This document shows positions 19,518 through 58,374 of a stretch of DNA of 64,000 bases, one piece after another. The first letter of the stretch is position 1, and each line of letters starts with the position of its first letter. Location of the stretch: contig NZ_JACHWU010000004.1 of assembly GCF_014191605.1 (NCBI RefSeq), forward strand, positions 310,001 to 374,000. The letters run 5' to 3'. The stretch is from Prauserella isguenensis (GTDB taxonomy: Bacteria; Actinomycetota; Actinomycetes; Mycobacteriales; Pseudonocardiaceae). Below the pieces are notes generated by a model. The model did no database searches and had not been told where the DNA came from. It saw only the letters and a list, made by a program, of their open reading frames with translations. The position numbers were made by a program, and so were the translations under genes.

Positions 19518-20252
19518 GTGCCAGACCGACAACCGAGCCCTCACGGCGCTCACCCCCGGCAGCCGGCCGGGACGGCGTCGGAGGTCATGCTGTGCGCGCC
19601 GGCGTCCGGCGCGAACCGCGGTGGAACGGCTCCGACGGGGCCGCATCCCACCGGCCCGCCGCGCGCGGGCAGGGTTCCTCGAACGCCGGGGGCATGGCGT
19701 TCCCGTGAGGCCGGCTCTGGTTCGTCCGGTCCTGGTTGGGGCAAACGCCGGGTCCTGTTGCTGAACGCGACGTTCGAACCGCTGACGGCGCTGCCGTTAC
19801 GCCGGGCGATCGTCCTGCTGGTCTGCGGCAAGGCCGAAGTCGTGCACGAAGATCCCTCGGGACTCACGCTGCACGCCGCGACGATGACCGTGGACGTGCC
19901 TTCGGTGATCCGGTTGTCGAATTATGTGCGGGTACCTTATCGAGCGCAGGTGCCGCTCACGCGTGCCGGTCTGATGCATCGCGATCGCTTCCGCTGCGCC
20001 TACTGCGGCGGCCGGGCCGAGACGATCGACCACGTCCAGCCGCGCAGCCGCGGCGGCGAACACTCGTGGGAGAACTGCGTGGCCTGCTGCGCCAAGTGCA
20101 ACCACCGCAAGGCGGACAACCTGCTCTCGGAGCTCGGCTGGACGATGCGGACCATTCCGCGTGCCCCGCACGGGCCGCATTGGCGGTTGCTGGCGCACGC
20201 GAAGGAGACCGATCCGCAATGGCGGCCGTACCTCGGAGCGCCGGCCGCCTAG
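19518..20252 (+). CDS. HNH endonuclease-domain protein
   Basis: The protein has up to 244 residues from GTG 19518. The first 75 are Pro/Gly/Arg-rich and may not be translated; no good internal start precedes the conserved RRVLLLNATFEPLTALPL, so the start is uncertain. The nuclease core carries two zinc-knuckle Cys pairs around the HNH motif: CAYCG, then TIDHVQPRSRGGEHSWEN, then CAKCNHRK. Such small housekeeping HNH proteins are widespread in actinobacteria, and this one sits at the place of Rv2469c, but the substrate is not established. Confidence 0.85.
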   Translation: MPDRQPSPHGAHPRQPAGTASEVMLCAPASGANRGGTAPTGPHPTGPPRAGRVPRTPGAWRSREAGSGSSGPGWGKRRVLLLNATFEPLTALPLRRAIVLLVCGKAEVVHEDPSGLTLHAATMTVDVPSVIRLSNYVRVPYRAQVPLTRAGLMHRDRFRCAYCGGRAETIDHVQPRSRGGEHSWENCVACCAKCNHRKADNLLSELGWTMRTIPRAPHGPHWRLLAHAKETDPQWRPYLGAPAA

Positions 20253-20402: not shown

Positions 20403-20804
20403 TCAGACGGTGACGCGGGTACCCATCGTCACGCGAGTGCCCATCGTGACGCGGGTGCCGCGGGTGACTCGGGTGCCCATGGTGGCGGGGGTGTCCATGG
20501 TGACGCGGGTGCCGCGGGTGACTCGGGTGCCCATGGTGGCGGGGGTGTCCATGGTGACGCGGGTGCCGCGGGTGACTCGGGTGCCCATGGTGACGCGGGT
20601 GCCGCGGGTCACCCGTGTGCCCATGGTGACGCGGGTGCCGCGGGTCACCCGTGTACCGCGCGTGACGCGCGTGCCTGCTGTCACTCGGGTGCCACACGTG
20701 ACGCGGGTACCGCGCGTGACTCGCGTTCCGAGCTCGGCGGGGCGGGCGACGTCCGTCGACGTCGCGTTGTCGCTCGTCGCGGCGGGGCTCAGGACGTGAA
20801 ACAT
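20403..20804 (-). CDS. Hexapeptide-repeat protein (18 x GTRVTx)
   Basis: The protein has 133 residues from ATG 20804, preceded by AGGAGG at ideal spacing and by a near-consensus promoter. Residues 1-25 (MFHVLSPAATSDNATSTDVA and five more) form a non-repetitive leader. Residues 26-133 are exactly 18 hexapeptides running to the last codon: sixteen are GTRVTx, with x being R, M, C, A or V, and two are DTPATM. The array is very basic and Thr-rich, with no signal peptide or membrane helix. The regular T-x-x-T spacing could build a beta-solenoid; a short leader before a repeated core also recalls multi-core peptide precursors, but no modifying enzyme lies nearby. No known family is recognised. The opposite strand is also open (VTRVPx) but lacks start signals. 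Confidence 0.75.
   Translation of the reverse strand: MFHVLSPAATSDNATSTDVARPAELGTRVTRGTRVTCGTRVTAGTRVTRGTRVTRGTRVTMGTRVTRGTRVTMGTRVTRGTRVTMDTPATMGTRVTRGTRVTMDTPATMGTRVTRGTRVTMGTRVTMGTRVTV
20406..20727. repeat. 18-bp tandem repeat array with 54-bp and 36-bp higher-order copies
   Basis: Eighteen-base units with core GGTGACGCGGGT fill this span. Two identical 54-bp copies occupy 20473-20526 and 20527-20580, and two identical 36-bp copies occupy 20581-20616 and 20617-20652. This shows recent tandem duplication in multiples of the codon frame. There are no unique spacers, so it is not a CRISPR array. Confidence 0.9.
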
Positions 20805-20877
20805 GTGGGCCTCCTGTGACAGGCGGAAATCAGTGGCGGTTGGGAACATCGGGGCGCAAGAACCCGTACGTGTGAAA

Positions 20878-20906
20878 AACGTACGAGGGCCGTTCACCTG
20901 TGACAA
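20878..20906 (-). promoter_or_regulatory. Promoter of the hexapeptide-repeat gene
   Basis: On the minus strand the -35 TTGTCA (20906-20901) and -10 TACGTT (20883-20878) are separated by exactly 17 bases, a good match to the principal actinobacterial sigma factor. The predicted start of transcription is near 20871. A palindrome with arms CGTACGT (20865-20871) and ACGTACG (20879-20885) overlaps the -10 and could be an operator. Confidence 0.65.
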
Positions 20907-21098: not shown

Positions 21099-21320
21099 GT
21101 GAGCATCCTCGAGACGACCCTGGTCTTCGCGGTGGTCCCGCTCGCCATCTGCGGCGTATTCGCCCTGGTCACCCTGCGTTCGAAGTTCGCGGGCCGGCCA
21201 CGGTATCGCCCGGGGCAGGAATGGGACCACCCCGCGACATGGTGGAGTGCCAACCCGGTGAGTGCCGGTACGGCCGGCAGCCCGTCTACGGACCGAGGAG
21301 GTGCCCGTGGCAACTGGTGA
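21099..21320 (+). CDS. Small single-span membrane protein
   Basis: The protein has 73 residues from GTG 21099. One hydrophobic helix near the N-terminus (TTLVFAVVPLAICGVFALVT) is followed by a basic turn (LRSKFAGRPRYRPGQEW) and a short hydrophilic tail. The orientation is probably tail-inside. It overlaps the start of the DUF5130 gene, so the two are likely translated together. A small membrane protein in this position next to the DUF5130 gene suggests a partner role, but the function is unknown. Confidence 0.7.
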   Translation: MSILETTLVFAVVPLAICGVFALVTLRSKFAGRPRYRPGQEWDHPATWWSANPVSAGTAGSPSTDRGGARGNW

Positions 21321-21804
21321 ACTGGTGCACGACCGTGCTTCCGACGTCGATCCCGCGGACCTGCCGTCCGGCGCCGCGGTTACGACGAGCGGACGCATCT
21401 CCCGCGCCCAGGAGTATGCACCCGATACTCCGAAAGGCCCATTCTCGACGCAGCAGTTGAGCCGGATCGACGAGGCGCTCGCGCTGGCGACGCGCGACAC
21501 CGGCATCGAATTCAGCATCTACCTCGGTCCGCTCGGTTCCGAGGACACTCGCGCCGCGGCGGAGCAGTTGCACGATCGGCTTGGTGAGCAGGGTGATGAC
21601 GCCGTGCTGATCGCCGTGTCTCCGGGGGAGCGGGTCGTCGAGGTCGTCACCGGCGCCAACACGACGCAGCGAGTGCCCGACCGTGCCGTGAAACTGGCCG
21701 TCATGAGCATGGTCGCCTCGTTCAAGGAAGGCGACCTGATCGGTGGCTTCGTCAGCGGCCTCCGCATGCTGGCCGACCAGGCGGGGAGCAATCCCGCGCA
21801 CTGA
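21307..21804 (+). CDS. DUF5130 (TPM-like) protein
   Basis: GTG 21307 lies six bases after GAGGAG and gives 165 residues; GTG 21301 is an alternative. The domain has the alternating pattern of TPM-like folds: FSTQQLSRIDEALALATRDT, FSIYLGPLG, DDAVLIAVSPGERVVEVVTG and a C-terminal helix FKEGDLIGGFVSGLRMLADQ. No transmembrane segment is present. The family is common in mycobacteria and relatives, but its biochemical role is unknown. It overlaps the upstream small membrane-protein gene and converges with pepN across two strong hairpins. Confidence 0.82.
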   Translation: MATGELVHDRASDVDPADLPSGAAVTTSGRISRAQEYAPDTPKGPFSTQQLSRIDEALALATRDTGIEFSIYLGPLGSEDTRAAAEQLHDRLGEQGDDAVLIAVSPGERVVEVVTGANTTQRVPDRAVKLAVMSMVASFKEGDLIGGFVSGLRMLADQAGSNPAH

Positions 21805-31742: not shown

Positions 31743-32519
31743 TCAGAACCCGAAGTCGAACCCGCCCATGTCGCCCATATCGCCGCCGAAATCGCCGCCC
31801 ATGTCGCCACCGGCGTCGCCGCCCATGTCGCCGTCGCCTCCGGCGTCGCCGCCGTCACCGCCCGCATCGCCGCCGTCGCCGCCCATGTCGCCGCCGTCGC
31901 CCATGGCGCCCGCGGGGACACCCGCCATGCCGGAGAACATCGCGCTGAACAGCATCATCGACCCGAGGCCCCATGCGCCCGCGACCAGCGCCGGTTTCCA
32001 CCACGGCTCGCTGTACCAGCCCTGCGGCACGGGCCTGCCCGCGACGCGGCCGCCCGGGTAGTAGTGCGGGGTGTCGGCGCCGGGCTCGGGCGAGGCCTCG
32101 TAGTGCCTGCCCTCGACGTCGACGGAACGGTGCTCGGTGACCTTGCCCGCGGCCTGCCGTTCACGGTCCTCCGGCAGTGCCGGCCCCGGGTCGAGGCCCA
32201 TGGCCTCCCGCGCGGCCCGGACGTAGTAAAGGCCTTCGAGCGCGGTGTCCTTGACGAGTTTCGCCTGCTCCTCGGTCTGCGCCTGTTCCATCTGCGATCC
32301 GGCGGCGTTGTAGCGCTCCGAGGCGTCCGCCAGTGCCTGTTGCGACGCCGTGTCGGTGCCGGTCAGGTTGAGCACCTGGCCGCCGAGCCGCTCCACCCAC
32401 CGGCGGGCGTCGGCCTTCGCGTCCTCCAGCCGGTTGCGTTTGGCCTGTTGGTGGGATCGCAACAGGTAGTACCCGCCACCGACGATGATCAGTACGAGGA
32501 CGACGAGGACGAGCTCCAT
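31743..32519 (-). CDS. Membrane-anchored protein with Gly/Asp-repeat tail
   Basis: The protein has 258 residues. An N-terminal signal-anchor (MELVLVVLVLIIVGGGYYLL) is followed by a charged helical region, about residues 25-115, with coiled-coil character (RYNAAGSQMEQAQTEEQAKL). A short second hydrophobic segment near 175-195 (WKPALVAGAWGLGSMML) precedes a tail of some 55 residues built of GGD, GDM and GDA units that ends GGFDFGF. The layout resembles actinobacterial proteins labelled DUF1542-like. Function is unknown; the acidic repeats could bind calcium or stay disordered. It converges with nei2 and lies 111 bases from the NlpC/P60 gene on the same strand. Confidence 0.78.
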   Translation of the reverse strand: MELVLVVLVLIIVGGGYYLLRSHQQAKRNRLEDAKADARRWVERLGGQVLNLTGTDTASQQALADASERYNAAGSQMEQAQTEEQAKLVKDTALEGLYYVRAAREAMGLDPGPALPEDRERQAAGKVTEHRSVDVEGRHYEASPEPGADTPHYYPGGRVAGRPVPQGWYSEPWWKPALVAGAWGLGSMMLFSAMFSGMAGVPAGAMGDGGDMGGDGGDAGGDGGDAGGDGDMGGDAGGDMGGDFGGDMGDMGGFDFGF

Positions 32520-53064: not shown

Positions 53065-53438
53065 GCGAACTCCCGGTAGCGCCGACGACTGTGTCCTACG
53101 TGTGTGTTCTACCTGGTGCGTCCTGCATGACGATTGCGTCCCACGTCCTGCGTCCCACGTCCTGCGTCTTGCGTTTCCACGTCCTACGTTTCCAGGTCGT
53201 GCGTTTCCAGGTAGGCCCTGGGCGGTTCACCGATGCGGACGACCGACAGCGTGAATCTAGCGGCCCGGCGTACCGAGCGTGAAGCCCGTGCACCGCGTGC
53301 GCCGGGGTCGCCCCAGGGCGCCGCGTACGTACCGGCGGCCGACGGCGGTACCGCACCGGGGAAACACGTGAAAATCGATGCCGGTCGGGACTGTCCGTAA
53401 CGGCCGGGTTGATCCATAATCGGAGGTGGTGATGCCGT
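53065..53438. other. Divergent region with degenerate short repeats
   Basis: The 374 bases between the kinase gene and the DUF3040 gene hold the repeat block at 53136-53216, close to the kinase start, and otherwise no recognised gene. The GGAGG that serves the DUF3040 gene is near 53422. Confidence 0.6.
53136..53216 (-). repeat. Two families of short direct repeats upstream of the LytS operon
   Basis: Two exact 14-bp copies of GCGTCCCACGTCCT lie at 53136-53149 and 53150-53163. They are followed by three 15-bp units starting CGTTTCCA at 53172, 53187 and 53202. Regular phasing of 14-15 bp and place before the kinase operon are notable. They could be a hypervariable tract or regulator-binding sites. 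Confidence 0.75.
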
Positions 53439-54071: not shown

Positions 54072-55481
54072 TTGAAGAGCACCGTCGAGCAGCTGAGCCC
54101 GACGCGCGTGAAGATCAATGTCGAGGTGCCGTTCGACGAGCTCAAACCGAACTTCGACCGCGCCTACAGCAAGATCGCTCAGCAGGTCCGGATCCCCGGC
54201 TTCCGCCCCGGCAAGGCACCGGCCCCCGTCCTCGAGAGCAGGATCGGCCGTGCCCCCGTGCTCGACGAGGTCGTCAACGAGGCCATTCCGGCCAAGTACA
54301 TGGAGGCCGTGCAGACCGGTGACGTCCGCACGCTCGGCCAGCCCGAGTTCGAGGTCACCAAGCTCGAGGACAAGAACGTCCTGGAGTTCACCGCCGAGGT
54401 CGACGTCCGGCCCGAGATCACGATCCCGGATCTGGACGATCTCAGTGTGACCGTGTCCGACGTGGAGGTCACCGACGACGAGGTCAGCGAGGAGCTCGAC
54501 AACCTGCGGGCGCGCTTCGGCACGCTGATCGGCGTCGACCGGCCCGCCGCGAACGGTGACTTCACCTCGATCGATCTGTCCGCGACGGTCGACGGCCAGG
54601 AGGTCTCCGAGGCCTCCACGTCCGGCCTGTCGTACGAGATCGGTTCCGGCCAGCTCATCGACGGCATCGACGACGCGCTGATCGGTCTGTCCGAGGGCGA
54701 GTCGGCCACCTTCACCACGAAGCTCCTCGCCGGTGAATACGCGGGCAAGGACGCCGAGGTCACCGTCACGCTCGGCAGCGTCAAGGAGCGCGAGCTGCCG
54801 GAAGCCGACGACGAGTTCGCGCAGCTGGCCAGCGAGTTCGACACCATCGACGAGCTGCAGACCGACCTGCGTGAGCGCCTCGCCCGGTCGAAGCGCATGC
54901 AGCAGGGCGTCGAGGCGCGCGACAAGGTGCTCGAGCAGCTCCTCGAGCGCGTCGACGTTCCGGTGCCGGAGAAGGTGCTGCAGGGCGAGATCGACAACGC
55001 CAAGCACGACGCGATCCACCCGTACGACCACGACGAGGAGGCCTACAAGAAGGCCCTCGAGGCTCAGGGCACCGACCCCGAGGAGTGGGAGAACGGCGTC
55101 CGTACCGAGGCCGAGAAGTCGGTCCGCACGCAGCTGCTGCTCGACACGCTCGCCGACGAGAAGGACGTCCAGGTCGGCGACCAGGAGCTGACCGAGCGGA
55201 TCATCTACCAGGCCCAGCGTTTCGGCGTCAGCCCGGACGAGTACATCCAGCGCGCCCAGCAGTCGGGTCAGCTGGGTGCGATCTTCGCCGACGTCCGCCG
55301 GGGCAAGGCGCTCGCCGTCGTCGTGCGCGGCGCCACGGTGACCGACGAGTCGGGTGAGGCGCTCGACCTGGCCGAGCTGTTCGGTGAGGACGAGGACGAA
55401 GCCGCCGACGCGGAGACCGGTGCCGACGAGACGCAGGAGGAGACCACGGCCGAGGAGACGGACACGTCCTCGGACAAGTGA
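54072..55481 (+). CDS. tig: Trigger factor
   Basis: The protein has 469 residues from TTG 54072 with AGGAGA upstream. The N-terminal ribosome-binding domain has GFRPGKAP near 44-51. The middle FKBP-type prolyl isomerase domain spans about 150-240, and the C-terminal helical arms follow. The end is a strongly acidic tail ([20 protein letters not shown]). It binds nascent chains at the ribosome exit. It is followed by clpP1 after a 13-bp hairpin, the usual tig-clpP1-clpP2 order. Confidence 0.97.
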
Positions 55482-55500
55482 TTTCTCTTCATGCTCTGAG

Positions 55501-55542
55501 CGAACTCGGGCGGTGTCAGGACTTCTGCGCCGCCCGAGTTCG
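55501..55542 (+). terminator. 13-bp hairpin between tig and clpP1
   Basis: CGAACTCGGGCGG (55501-55513) pairs perfectly with CCGCCCGAGTTCG (55530-55542). It lies 19 bases after the tig stop and 47 bases before clpP1, suggesting partial or full termination. Confidence 0.65.
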
Positions 55543-55589
55543 TTAGGGTCGGTTGCAAGATCTGAGACTTCGAAAAAAGGCAGGCAGAC

Positions 55590-56201
55590 GTGACGCAGCA
55601 CATGCCCGAGGGGCGCACCAGCACCGCGGGACTGAACCTGACCGACTCGGTGTACGAGCGGCTGCTCCAGGAACGCATCGTGGTGCTGGGCTCCGAGGTC
55701 AATGACGAGGTCGCCAACCGCATCACGGCGCAGCTGTTGCTGCTGTCGGCGGAGGACTCGCAGTCCGACATCCGCTTCTACATCAACTCGCCGGGTGGCT
55801 CGGTCACGGCCGGTTTCGCCATCTACGACACGATGCAGCTCATCGAGCCGAACGTGGCCACCTACGCGATGGGCATGGCGGCCTCCATGGGCCAGTTCCT
55901 CCTGTCGTCGGGTACGCCCGGCAAGCGCTACGCGTTGGAGCACGCGCGCATCCTGATGCACCAGCCGTCGGCGGGGGTCGGTGGTACGGCGTCGGACATC
56001 GCGATCCAGGCCGAGGTCTTCGGCAAGTGGAAGCAGGAGCTGGCTCGTATCACGGCCGACCAGACCGGCCAGACGGTCGACCAGATCCTGGCCGACGGTG
56101 ACCGCGACCGCTGGTTCACCGCGCAGGAAGCCCTGGACTACGGCTTCGTCGACCAGGTGCTGACGCGTGAGAACCCGGCACCGGGCTCGAACTCGAACTG
56201 A
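55590..56201 (+). CDS. clpP1: ATP-dependent Clp protease proteolytic subunit 1
   Basis: The protein has 203 residues from GTG 55590; ATG 55602 is a possible internal start. The serine peptidase triad is Ser99 (AMGMAASMG), His124 (ILMHQPSAG) and probably Asp169 ([10 protein letters not shown]). Actinobacterial ClpP1 assembles with ClpP2 into a mixed tetradecamer that degrades proteins fed by ClpX or ClpC1. Only 25 bases separate it from clpP2. Confidence 0.96.
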
Positions 56202-56226
56202 CCGGGACCCGAGAAGGAGACGATCG

Positions 56227-56856
56227 ATGAGCAACTTCCAGCTTCCTCAGTCCCGGTACGTGATGCCCTCCTACGTGGAGCGCACCAGCTACGGGATCAA
56301 GGAGTCGAACCCGTACAACAAGCTCTACGAAGAGCGCCAGATCATGCTGGGCGTGCAGGTGGACGACGCGTCGGCCAACGACGTGATGGCCCAGCTGCTC
56401 CACCTCGAGCACGAGGACCCGGACAGGGACATCATGATCTACATCAACTCGCCCGGTGGCTCGTTCACCGCGTTGATGGCGATCTACGACACGATGCAGT
56501 TCGTGCGTCCCGACATCGCCACGGTGTGCCTCGGCCAGGCCGCCTCGGCCGCGGCCGTGCTGCTGGCCGCCGGCACGAAGGGCAAGCGGTACGCGCTGCC
56601 GAACGCCCGCGTGCTGATCCACCAGCCCGCCACCGAGGGCACCTACGGCCAGGTGTCGGACCTGGAGATCCAGGCCGCCGAGATCCAGCGGATCCGCCGG
56701 CTCATGGAGTCCACGCTCGCCCAGCACACGGCCAAGAGCGAAGAAGAGGTCCGCAGGGACGTCGAGCGTGACAAGATCCTGACGGCCGAGGACGCCAAGG
56801 AGTACGGGATCATCGACGAGGTACTGCCGTACCGCAAGGGCACCGGCTCGAACTGA
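56227..56856 (+). CDS. clpP2: ATP-dependent Clp protease proteolytic subunit 2
   Basis: The protein has 209 residues from ATG 56227 with GAAGGAG upstream. Ser107 (CLGQAASAAAV) and His132 (VLIHQPATEG) belong to the triad, and EEVRRDVERDKILTAEDAKE carries the Asp. The long N-terminus (MSNFQLPQSRYVMPSYVERT) is typical of ClpP2 subunits, which contact the ATPase. It forms an operon with clpP1. Confidence 0.96.
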   Translation: MSNFQLPQSRYVMPSYVERTSYGIKESNPYNKLYEERQIMLGVQVDDASANDVMAQLLHLEHEDPDRDIMIYINSPGGSFTALMAIYDTMQFVRPDIATVCLGQAASAAAVLLAAGTKGKRYALPNARVLIHQPATEGTYGQVSDLEIQAAEIQRIRRLMESTLAQHTAKSEEEVRRDVERDKILTAEDAKEYGIIDEVLPYRKGTGSN

Positions 56857-56864
56857 TCGACCCG

Positions 56865-56911
56865 CCGCCGGGCGGGAGCGTGTCGTCACCCGACAGGTTC
56901 CCGCCCGGCGG
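56865..56911 (+). terminator. 13-bp hairpin after clpP2
   Basis: CCGCCGGGCGGGA (56865-56877) pairs with TCCCGCCCGGCGG (56899-56911), nine bases after the clpP2 stop and well before clpX. Confidence 0.65.
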
Positions 56912-57078
56912 GCTATGGTGTCGGGAAGGCCGTCGACACGGGCGGCGGACTCCCATCGGTACCGCGCGGCGGGTACCGTCAAGAGACAGCGCGTGGCGCC
57001 TGTTCACAGTGTCCACCAGGCGGCACCGAGAACGAGTCAGGTGCACCTGACGCACCGGAGGGGACGAGGTCAGCGGCC

Positions 57079-58374
57079 ATGGCACGCATCGGCGAGGGCG
57101 GAGACCTGCTCAAGTGCTCGTTCTGTGGGAAGAGCCAAAAACAGGTGAAGAAGCTCATCGCCGGACCAGGCGTCTACATCTGCGATGAGTGCATCGATCT
57201 CTGCAACGAGATCATCGAAGAGGAACTGGCGGAGGCCGGCGACGTCAAGCTCGACGAGCTGCCGAAGCCCGCGGAGATCCACGACTTCCTCGAGCAGTAC
57301 ATCATCGGCCAGGACGAGGCGAAGCGCTCGCTGGCCGTCGCGGTGTACAACCACTACAAGCGCATCCAGTCGCAGGGGTCGGCGGGCCCGAAGGATTCGA
57401 AGGACGAGCCGGTCGAGCTCGCCAAGTCGAACATCCTCATGCTCGGCCCGACGGGCTGCGGCAAGACCTATCTCGCGCAGACGCTCGCGAAGATGCTCAA
57501 CGTCCCGTTCGCGATCGCCGACGCCACGGCGCTCACCGAGGCCGGTTACGTCGGCGAGGACGTCGAGAACATCCTACTGAAGCTGATTCAGGCCGCGGAC
57601 TACGACGTCAAGCGCGCCGAGACGGGCATCATCTACATCGACGAGGTCGACAAGATCGCCCGCAAGTCGGAGAACCCGTCGATCACGCGGGACGTCTCGG
57701 GCGAGGGCGTGCAGCAGGCTCTGCTGAAGATCCTCGAGGGAACGACCGCGGCGGTGCCGCCGCAGGGCGGCCGCAAGCATCCGCACCAGGAGTTCATCCA
57801 GATCGACACGACGAACGTGCTGTTCATCGTGGCCGGTGCGTTCCAGGGGCTCGAGGCGATCGTCAACGAGCGCGTCGGCAAGCGCGGCCTCGGTTTCGGC
57901 GCGGAGATCCGCACGAAGCAGGAGATCGAGCAGAGCGACGTCTTCAGCGAGACGATGCCGGAAGACCTGATCAAGTTCGGGCTCATCCCCGAGTTCATCG
58001 GCCGGGTACCGGTCATGGCCAGCGTGACGAGCCTGGACAAGGCCGCGCTCGTGCAGATCCTCACGGAGCCGCGGAACGCGCTCACGAAGCAGTACACGAA
58101 GCTGTTCGAGCTGGACAACGTCGAGCTCGAGTTCACGGACACGGCGCTCGAGGCGATCGCGGACCAGGCGCTGCTGCGCGGCACCGGTGCGCGCGGGCTG
58201 CGGGCGATCATGGAAGAGGTGCTGCAGCCGGTCATGTACGACATCCCGAGCCGCGAGGACGTGGCGAAGGTCGTCATCACCGAGCAGACGGTGCGCGAGA
58301 ACGTGAACCCGACGATCGTGTCGCGGCAGCCGTCCCGGCGCCGCGGTGGTGAGCGCGGGGAGAAGTCCGCCTGA
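57079..58374 (+). CDS. clpX: ATP-dependent unfoldase ClpX
   Basis: The protein has 431 residues. The zinc-binding domain has C13-x2-C16 and C35-x2-C38. The AAA+ domain has Walker A GPTGCGKT (123-130), Walker [14 protein letters not shown] and sensor motifs up to [17 protein letters not shown]. ClpX recognises and unfolds substrates and threads them into ClpP1P2. It lies 222 bases after clpP2, so it probably has its own promoter. ATG 57079 follows GGAGGGGACG at a longer spacing. Confidence 0.97.

Follow-up and report, generated by a model that had tools for sequence, protein, structure and literature searches.

A pentapeptide-array gene with a conserved promoter region, kept at one locus across the Pseudonocardiaceae

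The gene for AfsS (AfsR2) of Streptomyces adjoins that of the SARP regulator afsR. According to two reports, AfsS itself is a protein of 63 aa with three 12-aa repeats that are thought to be crucial (PMC2267785), and its promoter is specifically controlled (PMC6988585). These texts differ on its relation to DNA, one giving no obvious DNA-binding site (PMC2267785) whereas the other has it bind upstream of regulatory genes (PMC6988585), and S. erythraea is reported to be without an AfsS-like protein (PMC3733707). We analysed a repeat protein encoded in a 64-kb stretch of Prauserella isguenensis DNA, hereafter the window, for which AfsS may be the nearest functional analogue that we found; the likeness is one of description, and we claim no family membership. 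Both are small actinomycete proteins made of short repeats behind what appears to be a specifically controlled promoter but, unlike AfsS, the array protein has no afsR-like gene among the scanned window neighbours. Left-handed beta-helix proteins of the LpxD/DapD/NeuD type, whose hexads follow [LIV]-[GAED]-x2-[STAV]-x, share with it a hexad period, a three-hexad rhythm in one class of arrays (GTRVT) and weak profile matches; they differ in that the second place is Thr in the window protein instead of G/A/E/D, that its scores lie far below the curated cut-offs and that other genera are not hexad-spaced. As in multi-core RiPP and repeat peptide-hormone precursors, a leader is followed by near-identical short cores but, unlike in the former, this leader appears poorly conserved and no modification or export gene occurs among the scanned neighbours. 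Finally, natural mycobacterial Clp substrates with a C-terminal degron include ClgR, CarD and WhiB1 (PMC5515868). Many relatives of the array protein similarly have a degron-like motif at the C-terminus, of AA/LAA type and resembling the tmRNA tag; unlike the array proteins, the mycobacterial substrates are given no array architecture in that text (PMC5515868).

Translation of the window confirmed what a sequence-only reading had described, namely an ORF of 133 codons on the minus strand with a 25-residue leader and exactly 18 hexapeptides up to the last codon, preceded by AGGAGG and by the hexamers TTGTCA and TACGTT. The features are as follows.

20403..20804, minus: array protein ORF, 133 aa plus stop, from the ORF translation
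20730..20804, minus: 25-aa leader MFHVLSPAATSDNATSTDVARPAEL, which is conserved in the genus but differs from genus to genus
20406..20729, minus: array of 18 hexapeptides (16 GTRVTx, 2 DTPATM), running to the last codon
20532..20585, minus: 54-bp copy 1, units 9-11
20478..20531, minus: 54-bp copy 2, units 12-14, identical to copy 1
20810..20815, minus: Shine-Dalgarno sequence AGGAGG
20901..20906, minus: -35-like TTGTCA; CTTG is conserved there in relatives
20878..20883, minus: -10-like TACGTT, at 17-bp spacing from TTGTCA
20855..20879, minus: conserved element, presumed transcript start, window copy TTTTTCACACGTACGGGTTCTTGCG, from the family comparison
19701..20252 (start provisional), plus: convergent HNH endonuclease gene, the synteny anchor
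21262..21804 (ORF limits), plus: DUF5130/TPM gene on the other flank, source of the neighbour tree

The array matches itself exactly over 93 bp at a shift of 54 bp and over 38 bp at a shift of 36 bp, in agreement with the proposed expansion in whole-codon steps through identical 54-bp and 36-bp copies, and the protein ends in GTRVTV. Two of its units are DTPATM; DTPATM or DTDATM units also lie between GTRVTM and GTRVT units in several genomes of the window's genus (L004, L005, L006, L008), and we noticed none in the other genera read. Scanned neighbours with Pfam names are HNH, MscS, DUF5130, PepN (M1) and Rv2466c-like, and no modification or biosynthetic enzyme and no exporter was found among the scanned neighbour ORFs in the window. 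Farther off, a 258-aa ORF (31743-32519, minus) with an N-terminal membrane-like stretch and a Gly/Asp-rich C-terminal tail had no Pfam match at E ≤ 1e-5, and short tandem repeats (14- and 15-bp units) lie at 53135-53212, upstream of a DUF3040 gene and tig.

We assessed whether the array is maintained as protein. Aligned in register, the 18 window units gave a pS of 0.45 and a pN of 0.064, and all core differences outside the two DTPATM units fall at codon position 3. In the 75 arrays with at least five units, the median pN/pS was 0.047 and the maximum 0.43, values biased downwards by the choice of units with at least three of five consensus matches; in the same consensus-selected set of 1213 units, each of the five core positions is kept in 96.5-99.3%. 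The window's codon pattern alone cannot name the strand, since VTRVP, the antisense frame of GTRVT, contains no stop in the window and is likewise fourfold degenerate throughout, at the same sites; a statement that the plus-strand frames have no coding pattern was therefore rejected as untrue for the window's own array. In 30 of 30 non-GTRVT arrays, however, the minus strand has a lower pN/pS than the corresponding antisense frame, and over all 75 arrays the medians are 0.047 and 0.124, respectively. Arginine is encoded by both CGN and AGR codons (595 and 74 in GTRVT arrays) and serine by both AGY and TCN. The relatives' arrays, together with the conserved ribosome-binding site (RBS), ATG and tail, establish that the minus strand is the coding one. 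The repeat exceeds chance, as judged from in-register pS and pN and from its conservation across a bacterial family, and purifying selection has kept most units intact. These values and the conservation in Pseudonocardiaceae bear out the proposal of a real protein with a kept frame. In six of the seven same-genus genomes, the window's own included, frame and leader have not been lost while the repeat persists; in the seventh, the L010 array is frameshifted after the sixth unit and further units lie in another frame. This array (L010/L182) is that of Saccharomonospora sp. CUA-673, a genome within the window's genus g1, and its frameshift reflects either decay or an assembly error.

The array gene keeps its place across the family. 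The HNH anchor gene was found in 128 of 130 family genomes and in 54 of 61 genomes of the order, six of these from Pseudonocardiaceae, and up to 4 kb beside it was read at 81 family loci and at 19 loci of other families; with the window locus and five same-genus loci from the repeat-protein search, this makes 87 family loci. Arrays occupy the HNH-DUF5130/pepN site in 80 of these 87, representing 39 of 46 genera, against none of the 19 loci from elsewhere in the order, where the equivalent place held at most one unit-like match per frame. The element, RBS, ATG and at least two units were recovered by script at 77 of the 87 loci, a set that includes L152, which is frameshifted, and two short arrays, L078 and L112; three further arrays were recognised by eye, in L060 (element present; its start was missed by the stricter script), L086 (element not found) and L119 (poor element). 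No array was seen in genera g3, g4, g5, g29, g58, g59 and g64, one locus having been read in each; in g3, g4, g29, g58 and g59 the HNH gene is followed within about 150-235 bp by a small, RYRPG-containing ORF that we take to be CtaJ-like. With the repeat protein as query, 31 of 60 genomes gave a match at E ≤ 0.001; a second search, at E ≤ 1e-5, was positive in 96 of 200 family genomes. The own genome is counted in each, and both searches miss other motif types and include some chance matches. Element, RBS and ATG accompany the array in 80 of 80 named loci retained from 111 confirmed ones, which were chosen by a GTRVT-like pattern and thus do not sample the motif types. The matches at L021, L022, L002 and L003 we judged to be chance. 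One record, L211, titled Rhodococcus rhodnii NRRL B-16535, is probably mislabelled and would belong to family genome G121 of genus g28.

Beyond the family, an array profile run at E ≤ 1e-9 against 396 genomes of the phylum matched in four, the own genome and three with unrelated runs (GTRVP, GVRVWL and GTRVWL), a search that leans to GTRVT and that other motif types could escape; phages and plasmids gave no match. In a tree of the DUF5130 neighbour (83 of 87 loci), motif types group largely by clade, as expected from vertical inheritance with few switches, and GTRVT and GVRVT occur in sister genomes of g21. The array gene is apparently ancestral in Pseudonocardiaceae.

Comparison across genera redefined the repeat. 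What the sequence-only reading took for a strict hexapeptide is a conserved pentapeptide, [GS]-[TVI]-R-[VI]-[TSHEN], with dominant types GTRVT, GVRVT, GTRIT, GIRVT, GVRIS, GVRIH, GVRIE, GVRIN, GVRVN, GIRVN and SVRIT. Most GTRVT arrays have single-residue spacers; in other genera the spacer measures from 1 to more than 10 residues, and 3- and 4-residue spacers can occur side by side within an array, with outliers above 10. At the 77 loci the arrays hold between 2 and 51 units and the proteins are 49 to 461 aa long (31 aa for L119, by eye). Thus the unit is conserved and the architecture is not: types are clade-specific, copies and spacers vary, and so does spacer charge. Arrays of just 2-4 units occur in L112, L078 and L119; the shortest may be decaying copies, L112 having a long non-repeat tail and L119 a poor promoter element. 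The net charge per 100 array residues has a median of +24 in GTRVT arrays and of +0.6 in SVRIT arrays (range -6.3 to 7.0); SVRIT arrays being near neutral, what is conserved is not a bulk positive charge, and the idea of a general basic or polyanion binder is not supported. The comparison of relatives that had been proposed gave a variable repeat number together with a leader kept within the genus and variable between genera, with a pN/pS of 0.82 in Amycolatopsis-type proteins (n=33). A TPxQ-like stretch recurs in leaders, and no signal peptide was seen by eye.

We then examined the control region. At the 77 loci, CTTG lies 27-31 bp before a TTTCAC element in 75 and a TANNNT hexamer occurs around the -10 place in all, within a permissive window; the family consensus of the 22-bp element is TTTCACCTGTACGG.yCTTGCG and its distance to the ATG is 70-76 nt, being exactly 73 nt in 40 of 77. 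The array gene thus has its own conserved promoter region, as had been supposed, in which hexamers, element and near-fixed ATG distance are kept across the 77 loci, but the qualifier 'strong' is not supported: TTGTCA-17-TACGTT was not among the calls of a strict sigma-70 consensus scan. Transcription would start at the TTTCAC element. A search of 15 genomes with a degenerate version of the element, up to two mismatches being allowed, recovered the array promoter in each of the 11 that bear an array, where it was the only exact or best match, G020 having a second one-mismatch site. Ten other sites with one or two mismatches, 7 in five of the 11 array-bearing genomes and 3 in G034 (array-less HNH locus), were taken as chance, and a shared regulon was rejected. 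A stricter element search of the own genome gave no match because the own copy carries an extra base; in 296 genomes of the class, the own included although its copy escaped the pattern, there were one exact match, in G074 of Pseudonocardiaceae, and four one-mismatch sites. A reading of TTTCACC as a PHO box, a single unit seen by eye, was dropped. RNAalifold predicted no pairs common to the 77 5' leaders, and Rfam gave no match at E ≤ 1.

ClpX recognises LAA ends. Among 132 distinct array proteins, in which Amycolatopsis weighs heavily, the C-terminus reads AA in 68, LAA in 47 and [DE][FYL][AST]LAA in 41; in the HNH-anchored set the counts are 31 of 77 for AA and 15 of 77 for LAA. The tmRNA tags end in [FY]ALAA in all 12 genomes examined, 10 of them from Pseudonocardiaceae (for the own genome, ARAGORN gives a second, overlapping tmRNA candidate with another tag, which was set aside), and the L053 tail RGDFALAA resembles the tag ANKSRADFALAA of the same genome, G007. 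The 41 of 132 proteins with a DFALAA-like tail are probably short-lived, as candidate substrates of ClpXP; the window protein, which has neither LAA nor a tmRNA-tag-like tail, is not one of them. In the window, tig, two clpP genes and clpX lie in a row at 54072-58374 (plus), some 33 kb away from the array gene. Mycobacteria have a comparable arrangement of these genes, and we do not take this proximity as functional linkage.

Library searches agree with the earlier view of an unrecognised family. At E ≤ 1, Pfam placed the window protein in no family. Among 15 members it gave only scattered matches, each family in one or two of them; the strongest were DUF6799 (1.3e-9) and Hexapep (1.8e-7), in one member each. 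The Pfam pentapeptide-repeat family (A[DN]LxX type) matched neither the window protein nor any of the 15. In NCBIfam the best score of the window protein was 20.8 bits against a cut-off of 242.5, and the CcmN profile matched one other member at 2.1e-10. No solved structure matched below E 0.06, and the searched literature, largely of journals outside subscription, yielded no description of the array family. In the structure prediction that had been suggested, AlphaFold drew short strands at most hexads, and no confident fold emerged from its two predictions (pLDDT 53 and 45). Foldseek returned nothing at E ≤ 0.001; among the 50 matches listed, E was at least 0.39 and TM at most 0.42, and many were other beta-helix proteins by name.

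Our preferred explanation, held tentatively, is a cytosolic multivalent motif array that would bind a partner through its repeated Arg pentapeptide and, in many genera, be degraded by Clp. The unit would be a short beta-strand-like pentapeptide with a central Arg between beta-branched residues, of which 2 to 51 would be displayed on spacers; the repeated motif would bind one or more partner macromolecules, and the array would act as a scaffold or a titrating decoy. The dedicated promoter, with its presumed transcript-start element, would set the level of the protein, and in many genera a C-terminus that mimics the tmRNA tag would contribute through rapid degradation by ClpXP. The main competitor, possible and on balance doubtful, is a beta-solenoid or beta-roll in which every three GTRVTx hexads (18 residues) would form one triangular coil of a stack; residues 2 and 4 would point inwards and the rod would display ladders of Arg on its surface, with longer turns in other genera. 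Most GTRVT arrays are indeed strict hexads. In 83 runs of at least six contiguous hexads, units three apart (lag 3) share the same x in 0.466 of pairs versus 0.347 after shuffling, with depletion to 0.189 at lag 2, and the rhythm holds for pairs differing at three or more of 15 core bases (0.472 and 0.181); but values above those of the shuffles are also seen at lags 4-6 (0.40, 0.39 and 0.43 versus 0.35), so that the rhythm is not purely three. Moreover, R, A, M, C and S together account for 988 of 996 x residues, with 81 Cys to one His although a CpG transition of CGC yields either. These strict hexads, restricted x and three-hexad rhythm look structural and speak against the motif-array reading. 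Redundant binding sites, furthermore, should each be under weak selection, and the observed units are nearly all perfect, which fits an ordered stack at least as well as an array of binding motifs. The weak matches to left-handed-helix (hexapeptide) acyltransferases are in line with a stack too; collagen-like profiles, however, are matched by a similar number of members, and such matches may reflect composition. We nevertheless place the motif array above the solenoid because of the poor AlphaFold confidence in spite of the strands drawn, the lack of a convincing Foldseek match, the mixed spacers and the 2-4-unit arrays, which a fold dependent on stacking would hardly accommodate.

Two further readings were weighed against the motif array. 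A multi-copy precursor, fed to ClpXP by the tag-like tail, from which proteolysis frees GTRVT, GVRIS or SVRIT as signals or modified products would accommodate the repeated identical cores, the variable spacers, the strong selection on the core and the degron-like tail, and the Phr pentapeptides of Bacillus resemble the units in small size and basic/Thr character; we consider it improbable, given that no signal peptide was seen by eye, that the scanned window neighbours offer neither biosynthetic enzyme nor exporter and that the Amycolatopsis-type leader is nearly unconstrained. That the DNA or RNA repeat, and not the protein, is functional, or that the repeat expands neutrally, has very little to commend it: copy number does vary with partly recent expansion, one same-genus copy is frameshifted and the transcript-start element is kept before the very short arrays of L078 and L112, but the amino-acid motif is kept while the DNA diverges, on the minus strand and not in the antisense frame, RBS and ATG are kept, and neither a common leader structure nor an Rfam match was found.

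If the motif array is the right explanation, the gene may have a regulatory role. It is conceivable, but quite unlikely on present evidence, that it represents a new regulatory class, a short-lived array that conserves nothing but a five-residue code and is read by a co-evolving receptor, with its dose set by copy number and by tmRNA-tag-like degradation; it would then possibly be a Pseudonocardiaceae counterpart of AfsS in the control of physiology or antibiotic production, in a family to which S. erythraea presumably belongs. The array gene is kept at one locus by antibiotic producers of the soil, among them Amycolatopsis, Saccharomonospora, Prauserella, Actinokineospora and Kibdelosporangium, and shows the unusual pattern of a pentapeptide under strong selection while copy number and motif drift by clade. 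This natural series of motif variants means that a receptor could be sought by co-variation; the members that copy the end of the tmRNA tag are candidate natural ClpX substrates, and the family-wide transcript-start element offers a clean handle on the control of the array gene.
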